In this document: in pieces, positions 56,135-59,141 of the stretch
Numbering within the stretch: position 1 is the first letter of the stretch
Layout: each line of letters starts with the position of its first letter
Origin: Rhodoplanes serenus
GTDB lineage: Bacteria; Pseudomonadota; Alphaproteobacteria; Rhizobiales; Xanthobacteraceae
Assembly: GCA_945893145.1 (NCBI GenBank)
Contig: CAMDDZ010000008.1
Location: 1 to 64,000 of the forward strand
DNA length: 64,000 bases
Direction: 5' to 3'
Notes under the pieces: generated by a model
The model's database searches: none
Told to the model about the DNA's origin: nothing
Seen by the model: only the letters and a program-made list of their open reading frames with translations
Program-made: the position numbers and the translations under genes

Positions 56135-56204
56135 CGAGGACTCCCAGGGCAACAAGTTTGGCGTAGGCTAGTGTCAAAACCCATAAAAAGATCGGTACAC
56201 TGAC

Positions 56205-56328
56205 GTGTCCGTCATTGCGAGGAGCCATAAGCGCTTTTACGCGCGTCTTCGACGCGCTATGGCGACGAAGCAATCCAGCTCCATGCTGTGTTTCTGGATT
56301 GCTTCGCTTCGCTCGCAATGACGGACAC
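56205..56328. repeat. Palindromic dispersed repeat, composite copy
   Basis: Terminal 16-bp perfect inverted repeats (56205-56220 and 56313-56328, GTGTCCGTCATTGCGA and its complement) enclose an inner 12-bp inverted repeat (GAAGCAATCCAG 56267-56278 with CTGGATTGCTTC 56294-56305). Its right half is nearly identical to the copy at 62176-62250. The left arm carries an insert with its own small palindrome (GCCATAAGCGC...GCGCTATGGC). It lies in the promoter region between the HpaB-like and Bug genes. Confidence 0.8.
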
Positions 56329-56379
56329 TAGTATGCGCGGGTGCGAAGGGTCCATCCCGCAGGGCGGCGGAGAGAACAC

Positions 56380-57369
56380 ATGCGACGATGGCTCGGCATC
56401 GCGGCGCTCATGGGCGCGACGCTCCTGGGATGGCTTGCGAGCGCCGGAATGGCGGCGGCGCAAAGCTGGCCGTCGCGCCCGATCACCATCATCGCGCCAT
56501 TCCCGGCCGGCGGGCCGCTCGACACCATTGCGCGCATCATCGCCGATCCGATGCGAGCGTCGCTCGGCCAGCCGGTGGTGATCGAGAATGTGCCGGGCGC
56601 CGGCGGCAATCTCGGCATCGGCCGGCTCGCGCGCGCGGAGCCCGACGGCTATACGATCGGCATCGGTCAGTGGAGCACGCAGGTGGTCAATCCGGTGACC
56701 TACGCGTTGCCCTACAATGTGCAAACCGACTTCGAGCCGATCGCGCTGCTCACCATCACGCCGCAGCTCATCATCGCGCGCAAGGATTTCCCAGCGGCGA
56801 ACGTGAAAGAGCTGATCGCCTGGCTCAAGGCCAATCCGGACAAAGCGACCTGCGCGACGGTTGGCGCGGCCGGCGGCGCGCAAGTGTCGGCGCTGTATTT
56901 CCAGAAAGAGACCGGCACCACCTGCCGTTTCGTGCCGTATCGCGGCGGCGGGCCGGCGGTGCAGGACATGGCGGCGGGCCAGGTCGATCTGATGTTCGAC
57001 CAGGCCGCCAATGCGCTCGGCCCGGTGCGCGCCGGTACCGTGAAGGCCTATACGGTGATGGCGAAAACGCGCTGGGCCGCGCTGCCCGATGTGCCCTCGA
57101 TCGACGAAGCCGGCGCGCCGGGACTCTATGTGTCCTACTGGCACGGCCTGTGGGCGCCAAAGGGCACGCCGAAGGAGATCGTTGCCAAGCTCAATGCCGC
57201 CGTGATGGCGGCGCTCGCCGATCCCGCCGTGGCGAAGCGGCTCTCCGATGTCGGCCATGACGTATGGCCGCGCGAGCAGCAGACCCCAGAGGCGCTCGCC
57301 GCTTACCACAAGACCGAGATCGAGAAGTGGTGGCCGATCATCCGCGCCTCGGGATTGAAAGCGCAGTAA
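56380..57369 (+). CDS. Bug-family (TctC-like) periplasmic solute-binding protein
   Basis: The 329-residue receptor has a signal peptide (WLGIAALMGATLLGWLASAGMAAAQ). The Bug pattern follows: WPSRPITIIAPFPAGGPLDTIARIIADPMRASLGQPVVIENVPGAGGNLGIG, and FVPYRGGGPAVQDMAAGQVDLMFDQA. Two cysteines (TCATVG, TTCRFV) flank the central strand. It is an orphan receptor divergent from the HpaB-like oxygenase, so the two may serve one aromatic substrate. The ATG at 56380 follows GGAGAGAACAC. Confidence 0.93.
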   Translation: MRRWLGIAALMGATLLGWLASAGMAAAQSWPSRPITIIAPFPAGGPLDTIARIIADPMRASLGQPVVIENVPGAGGNLGIGRLARAEPDGYTIGIGQWSTQVVNPVTYALPYNVQTDFEPIALLTITPQLIIARKDFPAANVKELIAWLKANPDKATCATVGAAGGAQVSALYFQKETGTTCRFVPYRGGGPAVQDMAAGQVDLMFDQAANALGPVRAGTVKAYTVMAKTRWAALPDVPSIDEAGAPGLYVSYWHGLWAPKGTPKEIVAKLNAAVMAALADPAVAKRLSDVGHDVWPREQQTPEALAAYHKTEIEKWWPIIRASGLKAQ

Positions 57370-57423: not shown

Positions 57424-57550
57424 CTCACCAGCCTCTCTCGGCCTCATGGTGAGGAGCGATGCGTAGCATCGCGTTTCGAACCATGTGGCCGCCACAGTGG
57501 CCGCCTCGTCCTTCGAGACGCGGTCCTTCGGACCGCTCCTCAGGATGAGG
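57424..57550. repeat. Dispersed intergenic repeat with several hairpins
   Basis: The block opens CCTCACCAG, continues CTCATGGTGAGGAGC and closes CTCCTCAGGATGAGG, so its ends are roughly inverted. Inside are perfect hairpins GCGATGC/GCATCGC (57456-57472) and GCGGTCC/GGACCGC (57520-57536), and a tandem GTGGCCGCC pair near 57485-57504. The wording is typical of a repeat family spread through Bradyrhizobium-like genomes. It follows the Bug gene at 55 bases. Confidence 0.7.
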
Positions 57551-57630
57551 CGGATCGAATCTCGCGTTTGCGGCACAGCTCTCCACTTCAAGTTTCTTGC
57601 ACGCATGCGTCTTCGTCCTGCGGCGCGGTC

Positions 57631-58048
57631 GGCGTCGAAGTTGGGGGATGTCCGTACCCTCGGATCATCAGTCCGAGGGGATGGAGCGCCGGTCGACGCC
57701 ACATCTCGATCACGCCTTATCCGCCGATGGATTACTCCATCGGGGACTAACCGGCGTGGCGCCCAAATTCGTGGGCGCGTCGCCGGCCGACGCTCCATCG
57801 CGGCGATTTTGGGCGTCTCGGAACCGTGACTGACAAGAACCGGCAGCGAGCTCTCGCCCGCCCTGATCCCGGTGGCTTACGCCGCCGTTCATCCGGTCCC
57901 CGTGTCACCCAAAACTGGGCGCCCCTCGTAGTAGGGGGGACAGTTACCCGAGGCCTCCCGGGGATTGGTTTACGAAGCCAATCCGCAGGCGCCGCGTCCC
58001 ACCCCATTCAAATGACGTCTCATGAGAACGCCCTCGGGAGGGTGGGAC
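57631..58048. ncRNA. Candidate structured RNA: chain of stem-loops, no ORF
   Basis: No credible protein frame exists here, but consecutive stems do. GGCGTCGA/TCGACGCC (57631-57700) encloses CCCTCGGA/TCCGAGGG (57657-57679). CCGATGGA/TCCATCGG lies at 57724-57743. A 13-bp two-part stem (57751-57786) has an AATTCG loop. CCCA/TGGG and CCCCT/AGGGG lie at 57908-57937. GGATTGG/CCAATCC lies at 57962-57984, and GTCCCACCC/GGGTGGGAC closes at 57996-58048. Strand is undecided. It may be a ncRNA, a mobile-element RNA of the HEARO/omega type, or a string of DNA palindromes. No similarity search was possible. Confidence 0.5.
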
Positions 58049-58194
58049 AGAAGGAATATAATCAATATTAGGAATAAAGTCAAGATCGTCCAAATTCCGG
58101 TAGTGGCCAGTTTGGATGAGGCGAAGAATGACCAACCCTGAATTGCAAATCTTGCGCTATTCTTGTCCTTCGCCGGCGTGGCGTGGAGCAACCG

Positions 58195-59141
58195 ATGGAC
58201 GTGTCGTTACCGCATTTCGTGGAATACGACGTGCATGGCCACCCGTCGTCACGGCATTGGCTCAGAGCCTCATCTCCAATGAGAAATTGGCTAAAGAGGC
58301 CGTTCTTCTGTTGGAAGCGTATATCCCCGGCCTCGTTATTGAGGCGACCGCTGTATCGGTTCGACGGGTCTCTCAAGACTCGCCCCTCAAACAGGCGTTT
58401 GTCGTTGCGATTGTCGCGGCTTTCCAGCCGAAGCTTGAGCGTGATGTGCCGGCCATAATCACCGATCTAACGGGCTACCAAATCCCGCCGCACTACAACA
58501 CGCTCATCACAGTGTTGGTGATGATGATTGCTGTCTATGGGATCAGCAAGGTCATTGATCTGTTGTTCCCTGGCCGCAAGAAGGGCGCGCTAGATGAAAA
58601 TTATAGTGCCCTTACCGTTGTGGCTGGCGATCTTATTCAAGTCCCCGCCAGCACAATCGACGCCGCCGTTCGCGCGCGATACAGCGGCAAAAAGCCAAGC
58701 CAGATCAGCTCATTTGTGAAGGGTTTTTTTGCACCTGCGGCGGGACAGCCGGGAGCAAAAATAGTCGGCGGCCACGGCATCGAAATAACGCCAGCGGCCA
58801 TCGCGCAAATACCGCAGCTTGCGTTGCCAGAGATCGTGGAAGAGGAAGAGAAAACAGAAAGTCAGTTCGAAAATAATCAGAGGATCATTGTCCACGCGAT
58901 GGACCGCGATCGGGGACGGTCGGGTTGGGCGGGTCACATCCCGGCGTTATTCGAAGATCGGGTTCCCATGAAGCTTGATAAATCGATTGAGCCGGAAACC
59001 TTGTTTACGAAAACAGAAGTCACGGGGGATGTGCTAATCGTTTACAAGGAAAACGATGCGGGCGTGCGCTCACCTTCTGAAATACACCTGCTGAGGATCA
59101 AGCATCCCCCGAGGGCCAAGAAGCGAAAAGCCGCTCGCTAA
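58195..59141 (+). CDS. Unrecognised membrane-anchored protein (one-base frameshift)
   Basis: No family is recognised. The frame starting at ATG 58195 (after GGAG) gives MDVSLPHFVEYDVHGHP. It then continues in another frame as VVTALAQSLISNEKLAKEAVLLLEAYIPG... to the stop at 59141. One extra C in the CCC run 58242-58244 joins them, for about 315 residues. One helix is visible (YNTLITVLVMMIAVYGISKVIDLLF). Polar domains follow, including an acidic stretch EIVEEEEKTE and a Lys/Arg-rich end (KHPPRAKKRKAAR). Base composition is lower in GC than the neighbours, and an IS1-type remnant abuts its 3' end, both suggesting acquired DNA. Confidence 0.6.

Follow-up and report, generated by a model that had tools for sequence, protein, structure and literature searches.

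Several described systems place a structured nucleic acid beside accessory or mobile genes. HEARO and omega RNAs, the partners of IscB and TnpB, are structured RNAs near an edge of mobile DNA that are transcribed towards the flank, and in integrons a structured site (attC) delimits short cassettes of accessory genes, often for defence. At known defence hotspots (tRNA/tmRNA integration sites, P2, and chromosomal), defence cargo is swapped at a fixed position. It is not settled how single defence genes pass from one bacterium to another when no mobile element can be seen. Among related bacteria, Bradyrhizobium carries the multi-copy structured intergenic repeats Br-REP1 and Br-REP2 (PMC5082802), and the processive antitermination RNAs (rrn boxA, put, EAR) have a boxA-like sequence of the kind found at the 3′ end of the RNA described here in many relatives. 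Our preferred reading, with a probability of roughly 0.68, is that this RNA, the product of a ∼450-nt gene with its own promoter and transcribed leftwards, forms the unchanging end of small sites in the chromosome where defence genes are exchanged.

The locus lies in a 64,000-nucleotide stretch of Rhodoplanes serenus DNA (the window), in which a preliminary description had noted consecutive strong stems at 57631-58048, with no open reading frame (ORF), as a possible new structured RNA. None of 100 dinucleotide shuffles folds as well as the 481-nt stretch 57600-58080 on either strand (z = −4.35 on the plus strand and −4.62 on the minus strand), and no conserved ORF is present, with reading frames and start codons broken between aligned copies from the same genome. 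A protein-coding reading was rejected, since every reading frame is interrupted and start codons are lost between copies. In window coordinates, the RNA gene extends from 58048 to 57597 on the minus strand, as delimited by the copies and their ends, by covariation, and by a match to model R1 at 57926-58051 (124 bits); its 5′ end near 58048 is placed from the promoter, and its 3′ end near 57597 is where homology between copies stops. The right edge first proposed is both the outer end of helix P1 and the expected transcription start, but the left edge fell about 35 bases short.

The RNA is preceded by a perfect sigma-70-type promoter (58055-58083, minus strand), with a −35 box TTGACT (58078-58083), a 17-bp spacer, and a −10 box TATATT (58055-58060); it is the sole exact match to TTGAC-N18-TATATT in the 64 kb, where 0.00 are expected. 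A promoter of the TTGAC type (47 loci) or the TTATCCCCG type (20 loci) occupies this position in 67 of the 136 loci, and the control stretches have none. The excess of G-U over A-C cells in the paired columns of the alignment (219 versus 38) fixes the RNA to the minus strand. Judged from sequence, the RNA is probably transcribed from its own promoter and stable. The structure first read at this single locus is real, but it belongs to the minus strand and to a multi-copy family.

The secondary structure is strongly supported by compensatory change, which is persuasive by the size of its difference from both shuffled and slid controls. RNAalifold predicts 63 pairs from 34 full-length homologues, 41 of them with two-sided changes, and in this alignment the named 60-pair structure, which counts a candidate pseudoknot, reaches 94.1% pairing and shows 217 two-sided changes, compared to 72 in shuffled controls that ignore the kinship of the sequences, none of 500 reaching 217. 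Sliding the pairing register drops the paired share from 94% to 43 to 49%, a control that favours the structure because it was partly derived from the tested alignment. The RNA appears to comprise a hairpin domain at its 5′ end (P1), a core that long-range helices close, a variable domain, and the long helix P4, with a pseudoknot also possible, all read on the minus strand. P1 joins GUCCCACCC (58040-58048) to GGGUGGGAC (57996-58004) and encloses 35 bases, and 8 of its 9 pairs have two-sided changes in the same covariation alignment. The long-range helix P2 (GCGGCG at 57990-57995 with CGCCGC at 57800-57805) is 99.4% paired, and P4 (57781-57799 with 57680-57698) coincides with inverted repeat I2, its two segments being 97.8 and 98.5% paired. 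The candidate pseudoknot (CCGAGGG at 58031-58037 with CCCUCGG at 57673-57679) has two-sided changes in 4 of 5 pairs, to which register shifts in the alignment may contribute, and its 3′ arm has an alternative local pairing with 57657-57664. No Rfam family matches, and the HEARO/omega RNA models give no hit either at the gathering score or at E values up to 5; this is one of the larger bacterial structured RNAs, of a family not previously listed. The suggestion of a new structured RNA receives strong support from this Rfam result, the strength of the compensatory change, and the conserved promoter.

The RNA is present in at least 40 copies in its own genome (85 to 96% identity), which share a conserved core and have two main types of end, A and B, plus mixtures. 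A search of 101 genomes found copies, mostly diverged, in 29 (counting that of the window), and eight complete or near-complete relatives have 6 to 48 per genome; some soil bacteria have dozens. Within the order, model R1 detects the RNA in 12 of 297 genomes, which span 10 of 123 genera; the sole hit among 289 genomes sampled from the class is the window's own. Among the genomes searched, the family is essentially restricted to Hyphomicrobiales. Named records with the RNA are MAGs assigned to Pseudolabrys, Variibacter, Rhodoplanes, Bradyrhizobiaceae, and Hyphomicrobiales, with single records from Methylocystis and from a betaproteobacterium, the latter possibly mis-binned. The plasmids and phages searched gave no match, and one IMG/VR contig has an RNA copy at the contig end. 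The 48 copies of relative G004 are more evenly spaced than by chance (gap coefficient of variation [CV] 0.57 versus a random mean of 0.97, with none of 5,000 simulations as even), the smallest gap being 40 kb, and their orientation is weakly clustered along the chromosome. Tandem full-plus-partial copies 20 to 70 nt apart occur at two loci (L200:1501-1846 and L194:15092-15267).

Many of the relatives' RNAs end in GGCTGTTTGACAATTGAATC, the core of which is boxA-like, as it is found again in four relatives' 16S leaders. A boxA-like GGCTGTYTGA is located near the RNA 3′ end at 25 of 102 loci and in none of 306 control windows, and in the window's copy and its sisters the site is degenerate at best. 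A 16S leader origin was rejected, as the relatives' rRNA leaders, compared by eye, share the boxA-like motif alone and not the RNA. Several type-B copies in the window's own genome run on into GGAG...ATG and then a short similar stretch, which could encode a few Ala/Arg-rich residues.

The DNA on the 5′ side of the RNA differs from that on the 3′ side. The 5′ flanks, taken as the 1.2 kb before the promoter, have a GC content below 0.55 at 21 of 84 loci, compared to 0 of 70 3′ flanks (Fisher P = 1e-6); a further, partly overlapping sample has 3 of 27 5′ flanks and 0 of 28 3′ flanks, alone not significant, and another locus set was left out as an independent sample because it partly overlaps the flank-GC sample. 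In 15 larger regions, picked for AT-rich 5′ flanks, the AT-rich part is one compact block of 1.1 to 3.3 kb that ends at the RNA. Genes in this position code for a DRT reverse transcriptase, dCTP deaminase, AbiL-like proteins, methyltransferases, STAND NTPases, and toxin-antitoxin components; PADLOC matches on the 5′ side are DRT RT_UG13a (1e-177), dCTPase (2e-150), AbiLi (1.5e-34), a PN effector (2.5e-10), PDC-M41A/B, and MTase_II (twice), and Pfam matches are PIN, STAND NTPase5, RelA_SpoT, HD, and RelE. None of 10 3′-side genes has a PADLOC defence match. These protein scans cover chosen loci and do not give an unbiased count, and about four fifths of the RNA copies are without obvious AT-rich cargo. 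Neighbouring genes have no significant orientation bias. No recombinase or duplication was identified at the ends, the far end of the cargo has no recognised motif, and no second RNA copy was found beyond the cargo in the 15 regions, the copy in L194 being a partial tandem one beside its RNA. A tRNA was considered as the far end, but ARAGORN found a single tRNA in 14 regions, away from any boundary. At two loci (L212 and L031; G047), a Y1_Tnp (IS200-like) transposase gene lies ∼100 nt 5′ of the RNA copy.

Orthologous sites illustrate how the RNA and its 3′ neighbour are kept while the cargo changes. Between trpS and a divergent PfkB-type, adenosine-kinase-like gene (both named from sequence, with no family search), the distance is 167 nt in G004 and 146 nt in G008, two sister species with no insert, and 1.8 to 4.3 kb in G001, G002, G005, G009, and G010. 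The inserts in these five species (1.7 to 4 kb) have the RNA at the same end and differing genes beside it; from the distances and the RNA position, the insert has its RNA next to the kinase and the differing genes on the trpS side. Within the window's genus, the model places the RNA upstream of the kinase in six genomes (G000, G001, G003, G005, G009, and G010), and G002 and G007 show recognisable, though degenerate or partial, RNA 3′ ends. Alignment on the kinase side is at 80 to 87%, but the 5′ flanks of the six RNAs have no mutual similarity. In the RNA tree, four of the six fall into locus-specific groups (in one case joined by a second copy from the same genome) and those of G000 and G001 sit with copies from elsewhere in their own genomes, a pattern that retention plus homogenisation would produce. 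Only one cargo at this site, a PIN toxin, has a clear family. At a second site, with uvrB as the far neighbour, three different cargos (a DRT, a PN effector, and a RelA_SpoT protein) lie between uvrB and the RNA in G117, G153, and G035, representing two families. As at defence hotspots, the core neighbours are kept while cargos of defence type differ.

In the window itself, GC content is 0.55 on the 5′ side of the RNA and 0.68 on the 3′ side. The 3′ neighbour is a core gene coding for a TctC-type transporter receptor (56341-57369, plus strand), convergent with the RNA. The 5′ neighbour (58116-59141, plus strand) is a putative cargo gene of unknown function without a Pfam, PADLOC, or NCBIfam match; homologues are present in 5 of 150 family genomes and in IMG/VR viral contig L235 (77% identity). 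Patchily spread in the family, it is a candidate accessory gene. The homologue in G274 has no RNA nearby, and the structure model (mean pLDDT 48.9) is too poor for use. The stem-loops do sit upstream of this gene, as initially stated, but it is divergent from the leftward RNA, which is thus not its leader. Just left of the RNA, 57438-57554 contains a large imperfect inverted repeat with GAGGAGC...GCTCCTC arms, and similar sequence follows several type-A copies in the same genome (L037, L050, and L053). A 135-bp stretch at 56189-56323, 96% identical to a repeat near another RNA copy (L050), is a separate dispersed intergenic repeat.

Under the preferred reading of an exchange site, foreign AT-rich genes of 1 to 3 kb, mostly for defence or toxin-antitoxin functions, would sit directly 5′ of the RNA promoter and be replaced over evolutionary time, the RNA and the 3′-side chromosome being retained. 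The RNA genes would act as shared anchors, either through homologous recombination between the many similar copies, which would explain the within-genome homogenisation, or possibly through some protein, RNP, or nuclease that reads the RNA or its DNA, although none was found. That the RNA or an RNP actively directs insertion or replacement of small defence cassettes just upstream of its promoter, with dozens of landing pads per chromosome, is a speculative and rather unlikely extension. A somewhat stronger, though still tentative, possibility is that the RNA and cargo together make up a small non-autonomous mobile element. Its right end, the RNA, would guide a nuclease or transposase acting in trans, or recruit it, in the manner of TnpB-type RNAs, with the flanking chromosome as a possible guide and cargo-free copies as the minimal element. 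Both empty and occupied orthologous sites, dispersed near-identical copies, the outward direction of the RNA, whose 3′ end lies in chromosomal DNA, and the even spacing in G004 (CV 0.57 versus 0.97), as with transposition immunity or close-repeat loss, are in keeping with this, but no nuclease or transposase was seen recurring beside the RNA, terminal inverted repeats and an Rfam omega-RNA match are lacking, and RNA-bearing sites persist across species as the cargo changes. The preliminary link to mobile DNA is supported in another form, the RNA being a constant border of variable foreign genes, and not as a guide RNA or retron: no IscB/IsrB/TnpB-like gene was found among the neighbouring proteins scanned, drawn from part of the copies, and the one reverse transcriptase among 20 scanned proteins is of DRT class UG13a and not of retron type.

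A housekeeping regulatory RNA (an sRNA or RNP) beside neutral intergenic space that merely permits foreign insertions would account for the standalone promoter, the long vertical retention at the kinase site, and the many cargo-free copies; it is unlikely, as neutral space predicts foreign genes on both sides, and AT-rich 3′ flanks number 0 of 70. The boxA-like sites, which match rRNA leaders and occur at 25 of 102 loci against 0 of 306 controls, together with several G198 copies that precede co-directional genes, could indicate a 5′ leader or antitermination element with a boxA-like 3′ end for the downstream gene. This is very improbable, because the genes downstream are not related to one another and lie in both orientations, the kinase has a promoter-like site of its own that is present at empty sites too, and the window's downstream gene is convergent; nor is the leader first suggested for 58116-59141 supported, as the RNA runs away from that gene. 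Least credible is a DNA-level repeat (MITE or REP) with no functional RNA: the copies are multiple, palindromic, and intergenic, but the G-U to A-C ratio of 219:38, the conserved promoter, and the covariation of the long-range helices argue strongly otherwise. The element's two ends are not linked by an inverted repeat, as those of a MITE would be, and no clean target-site duplication is readable, since the RNA ends differ between subtypes.

The RNA and its gene association are not described in the literature searched, which excludes most subscription papers and all bioRxiv preprints. At one edge of defence genes, the RNA offers a landmark by which Hyphomicrobiales can be searched for new defence genes, and a defined molecule whose possible role in defence-gene exchange can be tested; it could help to show how bacteria swap such genes. 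Unlike HEARO and omega RNAs, it has neither an Rfam match nor a recurring nuclease gene, is ∼450 nt with its own promoter, and stays while its neighbours change. Br-REP1 and Br-REP2 are palindromes of 20 to 40 nt, and their printed consensus sequences are unlike the ∼450-nt element (PMC5082802). In processive antitermination RNAs the likeness ends with the boxA-like site, which here follows the RNA and has no conserved gene behind it. Compared with attC sites as described, the ∼450-bp element has RNA covariation with G-U pairs and its own promoter, and its cargo is in either orientation at single dispersed sites rather than in arrays. Known defence hotspots likewise have a fixed position and swapped defence cargo; here, however, no integrase was recognised among the listed cargo genes, the cargo is 1 to 3 kb, and the border is a new multi-copy RNA.
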